From positions 1-23,737 of IMG/VR virus record IMGVR_UViG_3300035703_000409: a stretch of 23,737 bases of DNA, one strand, 5' to 3'. The notes under the pieces are model-generated. The model was given only the letters and a program-made list of their open reading frames with translations. It made no database searches and was not told the DNA's origin. Within the stretch, counting starts at the first letter, position 1; every line of letters starts with the position of its first letter. Made by a program: the position numbers and the translations under genes. Of this stretch, positions 1 to 7,842 are shown piece by piece. The stretch comes from a virus.

Positions 1-459
1 GGAGCCGGCTTCCGAGTCCGCGCCGTGGCCCACCGCGAGGTAATGCACCAGGACAAAATCCACCCCCTGGTGGTAGTGCGGAAGCGTCCGGTCACCAGTG
101 CGCTGCACGTTGCCGAAGCAACGCCCGGAGAGTTGGACGTCTCGGGCTTCGCGCAGGTCGAGCGCGTGGGCGAGGTATTCCCGGGCGGCCAGGCAGGCCA
201 CCCGCTCGAACATCAGGATCGCCTCGCGCTCGGGATGCGCATCGGCTTCGTCGAACAGGTTGTAGTGAGAAGTAGCGTAGAAGCCCTTGTCCTTCATGAA
301 GGCGTGAAAGTCGGGGGCACGCTTGGCTAGGTCGCCACGCTCGGCATCCTTGCGTTTGAGCACCTCGATCAGCGCCTCGCGCATCGGTTCCGGAAGATCG
401 ATCTGCTGCTGTGCGACCGGCGTGGCCCACATCTGGGCGATGACCATGGGCTGGATCAC
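1..459 (-). CDS. Partial 2OG-Fe(II) oxygenase-like protein (TIGR02466/PF13759 type), cut by the window edge
   Basis: 153 codons are visible and the frame is still open at base 1, so the C-terminus is missing. It starts with GTG at 459, and GTGA overlaps the TGA of the 316-aa gene upstream, which indicates translational coupling. An ATG four codons later is a possible alternative start. The N-terminus (QMWATPVAQQQIDLP, residues 9-23) resembles the 'F-[AP]-TP' opening of TIGR02466 putative 2OG-Fe(II) oxygenases. Residues 113-144 (RCFGNVQRTGDRTLPHYHQG, then a hydrophobic strand) look like the double-stranded beta-helix core, with H128 and H130 in the P-H-x-H metal-binding region. In this superfamily Fe(II), O2 and 2-oxoglutarate are used to hydroxylate a substrate. 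Here the substrate is unknown. The position behind two tail genes suggests a virion protein but does not prove it. The assignment rests on motif recognition only. The distal iron ligand and the 2OG-binding arginine would lie beyond the window. Confidence 0.6.
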   Translation of the reverse strand, partial: MIQPMVIAQMWATPVAQQQIDLPEPMREALIEVLKRKDAERGDLAKRAPDFHAFMKDKGFYATSHYNLFDEADAHPEREAILMFERVACLAAREYLAHALDLREARDVQLSGRCFGNVQRTGDRTLPHYHQGVDFVLVHYLAVGHGADSEAGS

Positions 460-1420: not shown

Positions 1421-2437
1421 TTAGCAATTGCAGTTGCAGTTGCAATTGCAGTTGCAGTTCGTGACGCAGTTGAAAGAGCCGCAGTTGCAGTTGCGGTAAT
1501 TGCGGTGGTACTCGCCACCGCCTATTTCATCTGCAGCCAGGTAGTACCCGTCGTAGTTAAAGCCAACCGAGACCGGGTTGTAGGCGTATGTCGTTCCACC
1601 GGCTCCGTCATACGAGCTGCTGTTGTGCCAGGCGGACTGTCCGATGAGCGTGTACCAGGTCCACCAATTTCCGTTCGGTGGTGTCCAGTAGGGGTTGCCT
1701 TGGCAATTGCCGTTGGGTACGTATCCGTTGCAGTTGCTCGCGAGGTCGTCGTAGTACTGATTGCTACGATTCATCTCGCCCAGGTCCTGGCCATCGGACA
1801 TCTTGTAACCGGTGTCCCTTGCGTTATCAGCAGGCCGAGATGAGCGAATGGTCGCGCTGCCGGACATCACGAGATTGCCCGTCATCGTGTCGCCGGTCTT
1901 AGCGACCCTGCTGGACAGGTCGATGTTGACCGTCGCGTTCCCAGCGGCATCAGGCCCGGCACCGTTGACTGACCTCACAAAGGCTGTGGAGTCATAGCCA
2001 TCGAGCTTGTCGGCGTCGGCTGCCTTGGCGGTGATGCCGAGGTAGGCTGCGTTGTGGTTGTGCGTGCTGGAGGCAAATGCGCTCGCATGTTGCCCATCGA
2101 GCAGGTCGGCATCCAGGCCAGTACCTGCACCATCCACAGTCAGCAGCTTCGCCAGGACATCAGCCGCCGTGTAGCTCGCGGCATTGAGCTTGGCGGCGAA
2201 TTGCGTATCGATGCCGCTTGCCAAATCCATGATGAAGCGCCAGTTATCTGGGTTGGTCCCGATCAACTGGTAGAGCTTCAACTGGTCCGTGCGGTAGCAC
2301 AGCATCCCAATCTGAAGGTTGGTCGTCGGGAAGGTGGTGCCGCTGTTGCACGAAATGGCCGTCTTGTCGTTGTTCAGGATCTCGATCAGAGAATCGGACA
2401 GCGTTCTGGACGACGGTATGTCGGTGAAGTTTTGCAT
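1421..2437 (-). CDS. Tail fibre protein with C-terminal Asn-Cys repeats
   Basis: 338 aa. The ATG directly abuts the TAG of the 450-aa gene (TAGATG), with AGGGG about 7 nt upstream. The N-terminal ~75 residues probably attach to the tail. Two fibre-type repeats follow: DADLLDGQHASAF (109-121) and DADKLDGYDSTAF (141-153), with a THNHNAAY segment between. A KTGDTMTGNLVMSG stretch (180-193) is common in phage tail fibres. Residues 225-338 are rich in Asn, Gly, Tyr, Trp and Cys. Cysteines are at 236, 245, 317, 319, 324, 328, 330, 332, 334, 336 and 338, and each is preceded by Asn. The last twelve residues are six Asn-Cys pairs, so the protein ends in Cys. The fibre is expected to trimerise and sit at the tail tip as a receptor-binding protein. 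The Asn-Cys end is unusual for a structure exposed outside the cell; it could bind metal, form disulfides or be enzymatically modified. Confidence 0.9.
   Translation of the reverse strand: MQNFTDIPSSRTLSDSLIEILNNDKTAISCNSGTTFPTTNLQIGMLCYRTDQLKLYQLIGTNPDNWRFIMDLASGIDTQFAAKLNAASYTAADVLAKLLTVDGAGTGLDADLLDGQHASAFASSTHNHNAAYLGITAKAADADKLDGYDSTAFVRSVNGAGPDAAGNATVNIDLSSRVAKTGDTMTGNLVMSGSATIRSSRPADNARDTGYKMSDGQDLGEMNRSNQYYDDLASNCNGYVPNGNCQGNPYWTPPNGNWWTWYTLIGQSAWHNSSSYDGAGGTTYAYNPVSVGFNYDGYYLAADEIGGGEYHRNYRNCNCGSFNCVTNCNCNCNCNCNC
1424..1459 (-). repeat. Two tandem 18-bp repeats encoding (Asn-Cys)6
   Basis: Read on the minus strand this is two perfect tandem copies of an 18-bp unit (codons AAC TGC AAC TGC AAT TGC), at 1442-1459 and 1424-1441, followed directly by the TAA stop. 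Within each unit the 6-bp Asn-Cys codon pair is itself repeated. Gain or loss of units by slippage would change the number of Asn-Cys pairs without shifting the reading frame. Confidence 0.95.
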
Positions 2438-3790
2438 CTAGTACCCCTGTGCAATCCAGGTGAAGGAGCCGGTCACGCGCGTGCCGGAACTGTTTTCGAG
2501 GACAGCAGTAAAGCCTGCCGTGGTGACTGCACCGAGCAGCCGAGGGATCGCCACAGTTGTGCCGCCCTTATGAGTCATGGTCACCTCTGGTGGCACACGG
2601 AAGCTGCGCGTGAAATTGATCACCGCGCCCGTTGCCGCATCTGTGATCTGTGCGGTGCCGCGATCGAAGATGTCGGGCACATCCACGGTGACGCGCAGAC
2701 CATCGATGTAGCCGCGGTCGGAATTGCGCGAATTCAGGATTGCCCGGAATAGCGCGCGACGGTAGGTGTAGTCGCCTTGGATGAAATCTCGGAAGTCGGT
2801 GTACCCGGGCGGGTGACCGGCCTCGACGATGGCAGCAAAGTCCTGCTCGGTGATCTCGGTGCTGCCAACGATCATGTCGCTGATCACGCCGTTGGCATGC
2901 CTGCGGTACTGCTCGGCAAGCGCCAAGGCCTCCTGCGCGGTCAGTCGGATTGCTTTACGCAGCGCATCCGATACCGCAAAGCCCTCGGACAGATTGCGGC
3001 GGTAGGCTACCGTTCGACCCAGTGCCTCGCCCAGGGCGACAGCCTCGACCACTCGCTTGACCGTCTGCCGTGCAGCCTTGTCAGACGTACCGAAGGCCTC
3101 TGAGAAAGGCTTCCGGAGCTGCTTGACTCCCAAGTCGCTCACGCCCAGGCCTTCGCTGATTCGCAGGATGAATGCGATCAGATCGGTATAGGTCTCGGCA
3201 AACGCGACAGCCTCTGAGATGCGCTTGGTCATCTGCCGATCCAAGTCGTCACCTAGCCCGAAGGCTTCGAATGCGTTCTTGGTTACCCCCCGTTGAGGCG
3301 TCTCCGACATCGGCAGGCTTTCGGCCAGGCGCTTCGTAGTGCTTTGGCGAAGCAAGTCACCCCAGGCCAAGTTTTCCGCAGCGCTTTTTGTCAGCACTCG
3401 GGTCAGGTATTCAGAGGTCTGGAACGCCTCCCGAATCTCTTTGCGACTGGCTTTTCCGACCCCCTCCGTGAAAGCCATCGTCTCTACCCATCGAAGCACG
3501 TATGCGATCAGGTCCGAATAGGTTTCCCCAAACCCGACTGCTTCGGATTCCCGCAGCGTCAACTGCTTGGCCATACCCTCGGCAAATGCCAAAGATTCGC
3601 TGGAGCGCTTGGTCCACTGCCTGCCGGTGGCCTCAACTAAGGCCAGCGTCACAGCAACAGCGACGTTGTAGACAGCCGGATAGGCTGTGGTCCAGTTTTT
3701 CCCGGCGCTGGCGCTCGACCATGTAAAGCCAGCCGATGCCCAGGTGTACCTCGCGCCCTGGGTCCCGCTGACCGTCACCGTATCGGGCAT
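2438..3790 (-). CDS. Tail-tip or fibre-associated protein with 18-residue repeats
   Basis: 450 aa, starting 5 nt after the TGA of the 148-aa gene and ending directly against the fibre ATG. Residues about 45-300 form roughly fourteen imperfect copies of an 18-residue unit, with a few copies of 20. The pattern is x-S-E-A-h-A-h-A/G-E/D-x3-R/K-x2-T-K-R (h is hydrophobic). Examples are SSESLAFAEGMAKQLTLR and FSEAFGTSDKAARQTVKR. The units at 82-101 and 192-211 are nearly identical, which suggests an older block duplication. The charged, helix-friendly composition suggests an elongated helical or coiled-coil shaft. The C-terminal ~140 residues (DFRDFIQGDYTYRRALFRA onward, including FRVPPEVTMTHKGG) look like a compact beta domain ending in an aromatic-rich strand (GSFTWIAQGY). 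I recognise no catalytic motif. By position after J it is a distal tail structural protein, perhaps linking the tip to the fibre. Confidence 0.85.
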   Translation of the reverse strand: MPDTVTVSGTQGARYTWASAGFTWSSASAGKNWTTAYPAVYNVAVAVTLALVEATGRQWTKRSSESLAFAEGMAKQLTLRESEAVGFGETYSDLIAYVLRWVETMAFTEGVGKASRKEIREAFQTSEYLTRVLTKSAAENLAWGDLLRQSTTKRLAESLPMSETPQRGVTKNAFEAFGLGDDLDRQMTKRISEAVAFAETYTDLIAFILRISEGLGVSDLGVKQLRKPFSEAFGTSDKAARQTVKRVVEAVALGEALGRTVAYRRNLSEGFAVSDALRKAIRLTAQEALALAEQYRRHANGVISDMIVGSTEITEQDFAAIVEAGHPPGYTDFRDFIQGDYTYRRALFRAILNSRNSDRGYIDGLRVTVDVPDIFDRGTAQITDAATGAVINFTRSFRVPPEVTMTHKGGTTVAIPRLLGAVTTAGFTAVLENSSGTRVTGSFTWIAQGY

Positions 3791-3795
3791 CTCGA

Positions 3796-4242
3796 TCAGC
3801 TCATCGTAAAGGTGAAGACCGCGGTCAGGCTGTCATCTGCGCCCTTGTTGACCACTGGAAACACCACCCGATCGAGCATGATGCCCCCGGTCGCTGCGTT
3901 GAATACCCCGGCTTCGGTCAGAGCGCCGGTGCTGTCGCCCGCCAAGAAGTCCGCGCTGAAGGTGAAGGTCTTGGTGCCTGCCGTGTGCGCGTAGGTCGCA
4001 GCATTTCGGTCAATTTCGGTCACCAGCGCCGACTGGGTGGCAGCCGCCGCGGTCGTGCCGGTGCCTAGCGCAATAAAGCCCATTACGGCGGGTCGGCTGG
4101 CGGCTTTGCCAATGGCGTCAGCAATGAAGTCAAAGCCAACGTTGACGATGATGTTGTCTTTGTGGACCGTCTCGACCTCACCGCTTGCACGGCGAAGGAT
4201 CAGGGTCATAGCACCGTGAAGCTGCATGGATTCGTCGATCAT
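3796..4242 (-). CDS. Conserved phage tail protein (tip or fibre accessory)
   Basis: 148 aa. The ATG at 4242 is preceded by GAGGAC (ACGAGGACTTTTC then ATG), a good ribosome binding site. It has the look of a small beta-rich protein often found after J in siphoviruses: GFIALGTGTTAAAATQSALV (residues 55-74), an alternating strand around TKTFTFSADF, then EAGVFNAATGGIMLDRVVF and a hydrophobic C-terminal strand (SLTAVFTFTMS). No enzymatic motif is visible. It is the first gene after the hairpin at 4262-4299, so it opens the distal tail module. The structural role is inferred from position and general resemblance, not from a named domain. Confidence 0.85.
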   Translation of the reverse strand: MIDESMQLHGAMTLILRRASGEVETVHKDNIIVNVGFDFIADAIGKAASRPAVMGFIALGTGTTAAAATQSALVTEIDRNAATYAHTAGTKTFTFSADFLAGDSTGALTEAGVFNAATGGIMLDRVVFPVVNKGADDSLTAVFTFTMS

Positions 4243-4261
4243 GAAAAGTCCTCGTGAAATG

Positions 4262-4299
4262 GAAAAAGAAATGGCGCTGTCTCTTTCGAGAGCAGCGCC
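4262..4299 (-). terminator. Hairpin with T tract between the J-like gene and the distal tail module
   Basis: On the minus strand the arms GGCGCTG and CAGCGCC enclose an inner TCTC-GAAA-GAGA stem-loop with one bulged base, followed by ATTTCTTTTTCC. This is a GNRA-capped, GC-rich stem with a T-rich tail, which fits an intrinsic terminator or attenuator. It lies 31 nt past the J stop and about 20 nt before the next start codon, so it probably lowers or stages expression of the tail-fibre genes. The T tract is interrupted by a C, so termination may be partial. Confidence 0.65.
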
Positions 4300-4329
4300 A
4301 CGGTTGGGAATGGGTTGAAAAGCTGAGGG

Positions 4330-7300
4330 CTAGTACAGACGCAGGCTGGTAAAGGCTCCGATTGGCGTAAGCGCCAAACTGGCTGACTCCACATCACCCC
4401 CCATCCGACCGACAAAGAGCCGTCGCTCGGTGGCGGTCTGGCATACGCCGATGCAAACGCGGTCCGTAACCGAGACCGCAAAAGGCACGCTCACTCGCCT
4501 GGACAGTTGGTCTTCAAGAAAGAACGCACCCGTCGTGGCGTCATAGCCCACCAGGAGTGATCCTGCGGGGCCAAGAGCCGCCCAGATCACGCAGGTTGTG
4601 ACCTCTGACGGTATGAACCAAAAGGAGGTGTGAAACACCGATGGGATGCTCACCGTCCAAGCCACGCGGGTGGTGTCCCGGACCATGAGACCGTCGCCAT
4701 ATCGGCCGGCGGCATAGGCGACGCCTGCTGCCTGGCTGGAGACTGGACTGCCAAATCCACCATCAAGGCCTGCGGTAGAACCGTTCAGACGCCATCCGTA
4801 GACCTCGCCGGCTTGCAGTGCGTCTTCCCTGGCGATTTGAAACCGCGCATCCACGTTGGCAATCGCGCCGTCATAGGCCCACTGGCGCCTAGCAGCATCG
4901 CTGCTCCAGGGGAAATTCGCCTCCAGCCATGTGGTCCGGTCGTCAACCGAGGCCCCAAGGCTATTGAGCAGCGTGTTCTGGGCTCGGATCGGTGAAACAA
5001 GGTCCACCTCAAAGAGGTACTCAGCCGTCTGGGCACCGGTGCTCATACGCAGGGCGTTTCGACCGTTGACCGAGACGACAGAAGCGAAGTGCTTGGTGCC
5101 GGGAAATCCTAGCGCCTGCTCATCGCGTGCCAGGATCAAATTGGCGTTCTGCGGCTGGGCAACCACCGTCGACACAAAGGTCGGCGTGTCGCTGTAGATG
5201 CCAGGGGACGCAATCGCCTTGATCCAAAACTTGCGCTCTCCGTCAAACCCTGAGGGCAGCGTGTAGCTGGTGGACTTGACCTCAGCCACAAAGAGCGAGG
5301 CATCCCAGGCCGCACCCTCACGAAGCTCATACCCGACAACTTCAGGCTCTGGGTTAGGCTGCCACCGAAATTCCAGCCGGTTGGCCGACTGCAGCACATC
5401 GAACTGACGCACGGTCGAGGGCGCTTGCAGGCTCAGCACAAAGGTTGTGACGTGGGCGCTGTAATTGCCAGAAGTGTCGTAGGCCCGGATGTGATACGGG
5501 TAGAGGCCTGCCGCGCTTTGGTCGTGGACCATCTGCGTGCCCGCGGTCTTGGCCACCAACTGGCCGTTATCCCAGCCAGCACCCACGCGGACTTCGTAGC
5601 CAGCAAGGTCTGCATCTTGTAGTTCATCCCAAGAAATCAGCAGATCGGAGACCCGGCGCTGGACTAAGAAGCCCGTGACATCGGAAGGCGGCAGGGTTTT
5701 ACCCAGAACTGTTGCGCTCAGGGTCGCAGGAACACTCTCCTTGCGCGTGATCCCGATCGCACGCAGGCTGAATTCATACGCGCCTTCTTGCGCATCCCGG
5801 ATTTCGACGTAGTTGGCACTGGTGAGCGGAAGGCTCACGAAGTTGCCGCCTGCCACCCGGTAGGACAGTCGGTAAGCGACTGCGGTCTGCACCTCGTTCC
5901 AGGACACCTGAACCAGCACCTGCGCCTGGTCTTTGACCCGGTACAGGCTCTCCTGCATGGAGAGCCCAGTCGGTGCCGGTGGCATATCCGACAGGACGGT
6001 GATCGAGCGGGGCTGCAATGCCAGCCCCTTTTCAATCGCATCGAACTTGCTCGGGTTGTGAGCGAGTGCGGTGACTTCGTGAACCCCCGGGTCCCGCTCG
6101 GCGACCGTAACTACCCGAAAGAGTTGCGGTTCGATGATGATTGATGAAAGCACCCAAATGGCGCCAGCCTGCGGCACCGCACTGAATGGGATCGTCACCG
6201 TCAGGGCTCGACCCGAAATCGGACCTACCAGCCGCTCCTCAACCACCCCAGTAGGCAGAATGACCGATAGCCGCCATGGGAGATCCGCTGGCAGGTCCTG
6301 ATCCAAAGTGACCGTGCTGGCAGTTGCCGCAGCGATTCTGCCCCCAAGGCGCATGCCCCCTCGAACCGAATCTGCGATCTTGATGACGTCGCCTGGGCGC
6401 ACCACCGCACCCTCCAGGCCCGTGCGGAAGGTGACGATCTCGGATTCCGACTGCTCGGAATACAAGAGCCACTTACCCACGCGGTGAGCCTGGCCCCTTG
6501 AGGTGCACCCCAGGGCCACCACCTCGCTTTGCACGATGCCGTAGCGGGCGATGCCGGCGGCGTCCTCGACGTACTCCACCTTCTGACGGTAGAAGTCTTC
6601 GGGGTCGTTCCAAGTGACCAAGGCCACCGTGTGCCGCGCCTTCGCCGATGACCCCTGGTAGGCAAATTCGCCATCCACGACATTGCTAGGGGCGAACTGG
6701 TAGACCGGATCAGCGGGTGCATCCTGCGTGACCGTGATCGCGCCCCCCGACCAGTACACCATGCCCCGAAAGATCGAGGCCATGTCCTGCACGACCTTGT
6801 AGGCCTGCTCCCGCGTCTGGAGGTACAGGTTGCAGGTAAAGCGCGGCTCAAAACCGCCCAGCCCGTTGGGAACCAACTGGTCGCAGTATTGGGCTACCCG
6901 GTAGAGCGCCCACTTGTCGACCTGGGCCTCAGGGATGTGGCCACCCAAGCCGTAGCGGGTGCTGGTCACCAGGTCGTAAAAGCACCAGGCAGGGTTATCG
7001 GTCCAGGCTATCTTGAAAGTGCCATTCCACACACCGCTGTAAGCGCGCATGGCTGGGTCGTAGTTCACAGGAACGCGAACCCGCAGCAACTTCATGTCAT
7101 AGCTGCGCCGCGGGATGCTTGAGAATTGGGATGCATCGACCCGAAGCGCTACCAGCGCGCTGTTGGGGTAGCGCAGTTTGCTCTCAATGACCTCGGTGTA
7201 GGACTCCACAAAGGTCTTGTTCTGGATCGCACTTGACGTGGAGTCCGCCGTGATCCGGCGCACTCGGATATCCCAGGGGCCACTGCCCGTGAGCGGCACG

Positions 7301-7842
7301 TAGTAGCTGCGCTGGTACTTGGTGGTGGTCTTGCCGGAGATCGTGTCGTTGATCATCTCCACGAACCCACCGCCGTTCACTTGGCGATCGATCGCAAAGT
7401 TCACCGTGCTGCCATTGAGATCGCCATTGGTCGTGTCCTGGTTGGTCAACTGCGGCACGCTCACCTTGACCCGAACGGCATCCACATCCGGGTCGGTGAT
7501 GGAGCGCACCACCGGCTTGCTCGCCTTGACCTCGACACCGACGACCACCTCGTTCTCAACGGACGAGAACCCCGGCACATAGCTTTGCTGCTGGCTGCCG
7601 TTACGGGTCTCCAGGGTGACGCCTGAGAAGTTGGTCGAGCCATCAGGGTTCTCAATCGGCGTGTCGTCCAGGTAAACCGATTGCAGGCCGTCGACCAGCC
7701 CCTCGATCTCACCCTCGGAAATGAGGTCAACCACTCGCGCATAGGCTTTGGAACGCAGGCTGTCGGGGGCCTCTTGCGCCACACGGGCGCTTCCTCCGCC
7801 GCCTTTGCCACCACCGCCCGCCCCAATGATGAGTTGGCTCAT
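4330..7842 (-). CDS. Lambda J-like tail tip / host-specificity protein
   Basis: 1170 aa, close to the length of lambda gpJ. The ATGA start overlaps the stop of the I-like gene. A glycine-rich N-terminus (residues 7-18) is followed by the typical J opening (SLRSKAYARVVDLISEGEIEGL, given here only as its conserved region at 28-50). Residues 50-610 form the tip-complex core, including GLGGHIPEAQVDKWALYRVA (298-317). Three fibronectin type III-like domains follow at about 620-712, 718-805 and 808-895. The C-terminal ~155 residues (GWRLNGSTAGLDGGF, AAGRYGDGLMVRDTTRVAWTV, FHTSFWFIPSE) resemble a LamG/concanavalin-like jelly roll. In lambda, gpJ forms the tip of the tail and its C-terminus binds the host receptor. 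Here the LamG-like end is the likely surface-binding part. The domain edges are estimates by eye. Confidence 0.93.
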   Translation of the reverse strand: MSQLIIGAGGGGKGGGGSARVAQEAPDSLRSKAYARVVDLISEGEIEGLVDGLQSVYLDDTPIENPDGSTNFSGVTLETRNGSQQQSYVPGFSSVENEVVVGVEVKASKPVVRSITDPDVDAVRVKVSVPQLTNQDTTNGDLNGSTVNFAIDRQVNGGGFVEMINDTISGKTTTKYQRSYYVPLTGSGPWDIRVRRITADSTSSAIQNKTFVESYTEVIESKLRYPNSALVALRVDASQFSSIPRRSYDMKLLRVRVPVNYDPAMRAYSGVWNGTFKIAWTDNPAWCFYDLVTSTRYGLGGHIPEAQVDKWALYRVAQYCDQLVPNGLGGFEPRFTCNLYLQTREQAYKVVQDMASIFRGMVYWSGGAITVTQDAPADPVYQFAPSNVVDGEFAYQGSSAKARHTVALVTWNDPEDFYRQKVEYVEDAAGIARYGIVQSEVVALGCTSRGQAHRVGKWLLYSEQSESEIVTFRTGLEGAVVRPGDVIKIADSVRGGMRLGGRIAAATASTVTLDQDLPADLPWRLSVILPTGVVEERLVGPISGRALTVTIPFSAVPQAGAIWVLSSIIIEPQLFRVVTVAERDPGVHEVTALAHNPSKFDAIEKGLALQPRSITVLSDMPPAPTGLSMQESLYRVKDQAQVLVQVSWNEVQTAVAYRLSYRVAGGNFVSLPLTSANYVEIRDAQEGAYEFSLRAIGITRKESVPATLSATVLGKTLPPSDVTGFLVQRRVSDLLISWDELQDADLAGYEVRVGAGWDNGQLVAKTAGTQMVHDQSAAGLYPYHIRAYDTSGNYSAHVTTFVLSLQAPSTVRQFDVLQSANRLEFRWQPNPEPEVVGYELREGAAWDASLFVAEVKSTSYTLPSGFDGERKFWIKAIASPGIYSDTPTFVSTVVAQPQNANLILARDEQALGFPGTKHFASVVSVNGRNALRMSTGAQTAEYLFEVDLVSPIRAQNTLLNSLGASVDDRTTWLEANFPWSSDAARRQWAYDGAIANVDARFQIAREDALQAGEVYGWRLNGSTAGLDGGFGSPVSSQAAGVAYAAGRYGDGLMVRDTTRVAWTVSIPSVFHTSFWFIPSEVTTCVIWAALGPAGSLLVGYDATTGAFFLEDQLSRRVSVPFAVSVTDRVCIGVCQTATERRLFVGRMGGDVESASLALTPIGAFTSLRLY

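Follow-up and report, generated by a model that had tools for sequence, protein, structure and literature searches.

Genes and features at the locus

The window analysed here is a 23,737-nucleotide stretch of DNA (positions 1 to 23,737 of the IMG/VR virus record IMGVR_UViG_3300035703_000409), and at its beginning lie a tail fibre gene, a partner gene and the first part of an oxygenase gene (Table 1). The fibre gene sits behind a lambda-J-like tail-tip gene, gpJ (4330-7842, matching phrog_31), and the N-terminal half of its product matches the tail-fibre families phrog_7389 (5e-10) and phrog_19602 (5e-8), so that homology and position behind gene J both identify it as a tail fibre. A Pfam search of the fibre gave no match, and an NCBIfam search gave a weak match under the cutoff. 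Upstream of the fibre, positions 2438-3790 (minus strand) encode a protein with degenerate AESLAFAE-like repeats that is conserved in relatives and has a weak C-terminal match to the H-type lectin family (PF09458, E 0.008).

Table 1. Positions of the fibre gene, its Asn-Cys sites and the adjoining cassette genes in the window
Feature	Positions	Strand	Basis or remark
Tail fibre gene, 338 aa, tip rich in Asn-Cys	1421..2437	minus	ORF
Terminal ladder (Asn-Cys)6, residues 327-338, Cys last before TAA	1424..1459	minus	sequence
N-C-N-C, residues 316-319, invariant in 34-row homologue alignment	1481..1492	minus	
Isolated N-C, residues 323-324	1466..1471	minus	
Isolated N-C, residues 244-245, invariant among homologues	1703..1708	minus	
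Isolated N-C, residues 235-236, invariant among homologues	1730..1735	minus	
Partner gene, 316 aa	456..1406	minus	no Pfam family
2OG-Fe(II) oxygenase, first 153 codons, cut by window end	1..459	minus	complete homologue L121:5364-6062

The fibre cysteines at residues 236, 245, 317, 319, 324, 328, 330, 332, 334, 336 and 338 are each preceded by Asn, which amounts to Asn at position -1 for 11 of 11 cysteines within the last 103 residues. The original prediction, that every cysteine of the fibre C-terminus follows Asn, holds for the C-terminal domain, though not for the whole protein, as the N-terminal Cys30 (S-C) and Cys47 (L-C) have other residues before them; its reading of an (Asn-Cys)6 end with Cys as the last residue is confirmed by the sequence. 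In 200,000 shuffles of the 134-residue C-terminal domain (23 Asn, 11 Cys), 11 N-C pairs never arose, the maximum being 8. The ladder is encoded by AAC TGC AAC TGC AAT TGC AAC TGC AAC TGC AAT TGC, with Asn as AAC or AAT and Cys as TGC throughout. Codon slippage alone, which had already been judged insufficient, was ruled out because the Asn codons vary, the isolated pairs are conserved in homologues, and the ladder cysteines keep every second place even where the residue between them (x) changes. N-glycosylation sequons were likewise rejected, as N-C-N does not fit them. The C-terminal domain of the window fibre contains no HxH motif, and the protein terminates right after the ladder with no added self-cleaving domain. 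AlphaFold modelled this domain with a mean pLDDT of 55.7 (<50 at residues 74-132 and 156-178) and gave no confident model of the Cys-rich parts, so structure is not used as an argument here.

Recurrence of the Asn-Cys ladder in unrelated tail proteins

Scanning IMG/VR with the C-terminal domain recovered 49 relatives. Three elements do not vary in the 34-row alignment A2: the pairs N75-C76 and N84-C85 and the block N156-C-N-C159. Asn-1 of the isolated cysteines is kept across 33 homologues, with A-C, D-C, Y-C and C-C as exceptions, so conservation of Asn-1 holds at the invariant pairs and is not universal. The terminal run differs among relatives in length and in x (e.g., NCNCNCACDC, NCNCACCGNCCGCC and others). 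A DNA scan for (AAYTGY)4 returned at least 119 stretches, and the database search for repeated Asn-Cys ends that had been suggested yielded at least 95 genuine (Asn-Cys)4-ending phage proteins. Among the matches listed, many (NC)n-ending proteins are unrelated to the window fibre, including 95-aa proteins (two in tandem at some loci), 134-aa GNCNNGNC proteins, 70-aa HTHIFYDDY proteins and other fibres. A tblastn search of 50,697 cultured-phage records gave no hit for the C-terminal domain or for three other ladder proteins (GNCNNGNC, HTHIFYDDY and short LGNYGGF types); in that collection the system is visible only via Achromobacter phages JWF and 2-1.

We compared 46 non-redundant tails drawn from the loci of the enzyme-first test described below. 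With the last 30 residues removed, these proteins fall into about 11 groups with no detectable mutual similarity. The spacing of successive cysteines is dominated by 2 (208 cases), and the ladder residue x is Asn in 62%, Ala in 18% and Asp in 9%; the frequency of Ala and Asp indicates that Asn is not strictly required. Asn stands at -1 of 83 of the 118 isolated cysteines (70%, against a 7% background), and among the offsets from -6 to +6 no other exceeds 22%. The Cys ladder is thus the constant part and Asn-Cys a strong preference, both recurring on unrelated scaffolds as expected for an enzyme recognition site. Selection on the Asn-Cys dipeptide, as originally proposed, stands as such a preference and not as an absolute rule.

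Several relatives carry further sequence behind the ladder. A Hint domain follows it in JWF (PF05203, 3e-12), L158, L189-L193 and L209, and an S74 chaperone in L086. Fibres with an S74 chaperone are trimeric, and by analogy the S74 domain suggests a trimer here as well. Hint and S74 are both self-cleaving kinds and each is expected to expose the ladder as a new C-terminus, a sign that the mature protein is intended to end in the ladder. At three loci (L150, L116, L013) an unnamed domain starting VICTELYSQGYM / IICTKLFSLGMM comes after the ladder; the L013 form has no Pfam match. Five records (L008, L014, L049, L057, L073) encode proteins of ~70 aa ending HTHIFYDDYSTACNCNCNCNC and hold two to four divergent radical SAM matches. 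A 134-aa protein of L085 combines repeated Cys-Gln pairs (CQTCQGCQ...) with N-C pairs and has two divergent radical SAM matches nearby; it is perhaps a related system using Gln.

A cassette ending in a radical SAM-SPASM enzyme

In the closest relatives of the window (L121, L123, L124), the gene order is fibre, a partner of ~230-330 aa, at least one 2OG-Fe(II) oxygenase and, last, a radical SAM-SPASM enzyme. The closest of all, L121 (C-terminal domain 99% identical), has the fibre at 3389-4402, then the partner, the oxygenase at 5364-6062 and the radical SAM-SPASM gene at 6257-7699. The radical SAM gene is absent from the window, as the contig ends inside the oxygenase; judging from the near-identical L121, it should start ~430 bases past position 1 in the window's phage. 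Phages JWF and 2-1 have a minimal cassette, in which a fibre with NCNCDCNCNCSC directly followed by Hint is accompanied by a 240-aa protein and a radical SAM gene.

The partner combines a phage-specific N-terminal domain with a C-terminal Ig-like domain (structure model, pLDDT 86), has no Cys ladder, and has no Cys among its invariant columns. By iterated profiles, which make the counts approximate, 108 of 125 ladder and radical SAM loci have a homologue of the partner and 83 have an oxygenase resembling PF13759. In the window the oxygenase GTG start overlaps the partner stop. The complete L121 homologue matches PF13759 (E 3.5e-10, 40.6 bits vs a cutoff of 27), and the window's own 149-aa piece (from the ATG of residue 5 to the contig end) gave no Pfam match alone. 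2OG-type genes also occur in G002, where the ladder and the radical SAM gene are both absent, which makes the tie of the oxygenase to the tail looser. Two genes that adjoin the fibre cassette elsewhere (L130:7593-8366, without a Pfam match, and L435:5151-5942) resemble, by eye and from their His motifs, membrane fatty-acid desaturases.

The enzyme has a CX3CX2C cluster motif and a complete seven-Cys SPASM pattern, CX(9-15)GX4C...CX2CX5CX3C...C, with C78/C82/C85, C320, G334, C339, C373, C376, C382, C386 and C398 invariant in 19 sequences, and it scores above the cutoff for the SPASM family TIGR04085 (30-35 bits vs 27). Four enzymes, those of L121, L124, L019 and JWF, were scanned against curated families. 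The nearest were maturases of Cys-containing peptides or proteins: PapB, nif11, QhpD, CcpM, SCIFF and geopeptides. PapB was the second-best match for three of the four enzymes (2e-15, 3.8e-12, 4.4e-15) and the best for the fourth (7.8e-21), with scores of 56.9, 46.1, 55.7 and 74.6 bits against the cutoff of 340 for the PapB ranthipeptide maturase NF047865; QhpD (TIGR03906) matched at 1.7e-13 and 1e-17, under its cutoff of 453 bits. Since all of the nearest curated families lie far below cutoff, the enzyme is, on its sequence, assigned to a new radical SAM-SPASM subfamily. Matches in the PDB include 8vpo (3.7e-20), the anaerobic sulfatase-maturating enzyme (anSME) 4k37 (1.4e-15) and 5wgg (2e-14), the last of which we take to be the SCIFF maturase CteB.

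Linkage of the tail to the enzyme

Association was assessed from three starting points. The tail-first test took loci with the motif at or near a real protein end, or before a known extra domain, and counted whole records. Among the matches listed, the enzyme is in the record for 88 of 95 genuine (Asn-Cys)4-ending phage proteins, the remaining seven having 81-1225 bases of contig left after the ladder, and for none of 24 loci with the motif in a spurious frame (Fisher p=3e-19). The enzyme-first test used alignment A1, which was built from tail-linked loci, to scan bacterial genomes and viral contigs whose choice did not depend on the tail, taking in loci with at least 3.5 kb upstream. A putative Cys-rich substrate gene, as in radical SAM-SPASM maturase loci, was found in 116 of 130 loci as a Cys-x-Cys ladder protein just upstream of the enzyme (same strand in 116/116, median 1.35 kb), compared with 7 of 104 loci on the downstream control side. 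This control count is for the strict ladder criterion; a looser version matched 37 of the 104 control stretches in GC-rich false frames and was dropped. Finally, among 20 records >16 kb picked by terminase identity alone, five have the enzyme, the same five have AAYTGYAAYTGY, and 15 have neither (p=1/15504), though gpJ was found in only three and some of these 15 negative terminase relatives may end before the tail genes.

The original prediction held that loss of the tail in a close relative would make the pairing incidental. Such a relative exists in G002, which is not cut and has a terminase 92% and a gpJ 82% identical and a homologous fibre N-terminus; its fibre tip is of HxH type (SHTHSY, SHNHTF), and the ladder is absent, but the radical SAM gene is gone too, which supports coupling rather than an incidental tail. 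On a tree of 108 enzymes the tail groups cluster (18 changes vs 61.5 when shuffled), and they have been swapped several times.

The upstream ladder is missing at 14 of the 130 enzyme loci. Six of these (L230, L236, L238, L239, L242, L244) are of Bacteriovorax type, in which the same enzyme clade occurs in a non-tail setting with no ladder protein and in some cases beside another radical SAM gene; this part of the clade presumably has another substrate. In another, L317, the ladder CQCDCVCACECQCDCLC is at the N-terminus of a Gly-rich protein (6274-6759) just downstream of the radical SAM gene, and some of the others may be gene-finding failures.

Proposed modification of the fibre tip

The tail recurs in otherwise unrelated tail proteins and is linked to one enzyme clade, a coupling established by statistics, and recognition by a modifying enzyme, one of the original suggestions, has gained strong support from the specific radical SAM-SPASM gene that accompanies it. 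We therefore hypothesize, with considerable confidence, that the phage encodes a maturation cassette whose enzyme modifies the fibre tip, the Asn-Cys tail being the segment that serves as its substrate. The cassette would consist of the fibre, the partner, usually one or more 2OG-Fe(II) oxygenases and the radical SAM-SPASM enzyme, and that the last of these modifies the tail we regard as very likely. It would act on the Cys-x-Cys ladder and on the isolated Asn-Cys pairs, with Asn at -1 as a favoured element of its recognition site, and a second oxidative mark may come from the oxygenase. The product is more tentative. The likeliest would be thioethers, carbon-sulphur cross-links that join Cys to a carbon of the backbone or of a side chain, perhaps in the adjacent Asn, a choice on which we would not yet insist. 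Chemical precedents, with no homology implied, may be seen in the beta-thioether between Cys and an upstream Asn in NxxcB and the thiomorpholine ring of enteropeptins (review, PMC13361665), for Cys-Asn and short-range links. Such cross-links could lock the receptor-binding tip in a protease- and reduction-proof shape, and we infer that the modification helps the tip to bind its receptor or to remain stable. In many phages of Proteobacteria, and perhaps of other bacteria, a radical SAM enzyme encoded by the phage might then cross-link the fibre tip covalently through carbon-sulphur bonds, giving a polycyclic (e.g., Cys-Asn thioether) or interchain-stapled receptor-binding tip; this we advance as a conjecture that may well prove wrong.

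Four other explanations were weighed. The ladder could be a metal- or cluster-binding spindle on the axis of a trimeric fibre, CxC replacing the HxH iron ladder of T4 gp37, with the radical SAM enzyme acting elsewhere or only tuning it. The strict two-residue spacing (208 spacings of 2) fits one face of a beta-strand, and near-isogenic G002 has its HxH motifs at the tip instead, yet the spindle leaves the radical SAM-SPASM linkage and the Asn-1 preference at isolated cysteines unexplained and finds no confident structure in AlphaFold, and we consider it unlikely. Less likely again is oxidation of Cys to formylglycine by anaerobic sulfatase-maturase chemistry, which would leave an aldehyde tip able to bond covalently to amines of the host surface. 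The JWF enzyme is annotated in GenBank as an anaerobic sulfatase-maturating enzyme and the closest PDB matches include anSME structures (4k37), but the four enzymes score 41.8, 36.4, 51.2 and 47.6 bits for TIGR03942, far from its cutoff of 349, the tails lack the sulfatase motif C-x-P/A-x-R, and the conserved residue is Asn-1 and not those after Cys. Tail and enzyme might also be linked only by riding in a fast-exchanging receptor module, with the partner as the true target, as its presence at most loci and the clustered yet repeatedly swapped tail groups would allow. Ladder and enzyme are nevertheless retained at the 17 of 125 loci without a recognisable partner, the partner lacks a ladder and invariant cysteines, and the same sequence signature marks unrelated tail proteins, which makes this reading rather improbable. 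Interchain disulfides in a trimer, formed with no enzymatic modification, would suit many cysteines at the end of a probably trimeric fibre (S74-type chaperone in L086) but need no such partner enzyme and leave both its linkage and the Asn preference unexplained, and are the least credible of the four.

Hosts and implications

Among the bacteria with loci that carry both ladder and enzyme are Limnohabitans, Thalassovita, Nereida, Thalassobacter, Magnetospirillum, Burkholderia paludis MSh1 and Polynucleobacter, and homologues of the window tail genes lie in the same stretch at 44 of 62 bacterial loci, which identifies these as prophages. Fibre and dedicated radical SAM enzyme apparently form a widespread, hitherto undescribed system; a literature search of open-licence papers turned up no account of a phage fibre modified by a radical SAM enzyme. 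If enzymatic modification of the tip is correct, a phage tail fibre would be a radical SAM substrate, which would place between gene and receptor-binding tip an extra layer of which host-range prediction takes no account. A fibre produced from its sequence in the absence of the cassette may then be non-functional, which would matter for phage engineering and structure prediction, and the loci would offer a large natural collection of enzymes with their substrates for use in peptide cross-linking. Some of the 2OG-Fe(II) oxygenase genes that neighbour phage tail genes would also gain one possible role. Should the tips carry carbon-sulphur cross-links, this would be a class of virion modification and a genetically encoded chemistry not known before. 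The system has cultured representatives, both in Achromobacter phages (JWF and 2-1) and in bacterial strains that carry it on prophages, so the hypothesis is testable there; JWF is temperate, a siphophage whose host range is relatively broad (PMC3899368).

Comparison with known systems

The T4 gp37/gp12-type HxH tip similarly has alternating metal-ligand-like residues at the fibre tip, as does the homologous fibre of G002, whereas the window fibre has Cys for His plus an enzyme cassette. Phage fibres processed by Hint or S74 domains are matched by the relatives that fuse the ladder to a self-cleaving domain (JWF, L158, L189-L193, L209, L086), unlike the window fibre, which stops after it. Among enzymes, the anaerobic sulfatase-maturating enzyme (TIGR03942, 4k37) shares the fold, the SPASM pattern and the GenBank annotation of the JWF gene, but its cutoff is not reached and no C/S-x-P/A-x-R motif occurs at the phage N-C sites. 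QhpD, the thioether maturase of quinohemoprotein amine dehydrogenase, modifies a protein subunit and not a small peptide; it resembles the phage enzyme as a radical SAM-SPASM protein with a protein substrate and differs in that this substrate is unrelated and in the sub-cutoff score of the phage enzyme. PapB likewise combines radical SAM and SPASM domains with an adjoining gene for a Cys-rich substrate, though the putative phage substrate is a fibre end and not a short leader-bearing peptide, and the enzyme is far under the 340-bit family cutoff. The predicted substrate is a 338-aa fibre with a C-terminal motif rather than a short leader-core precursor, and by analogy the fibre would work like a classical RiPP precursor without being one.
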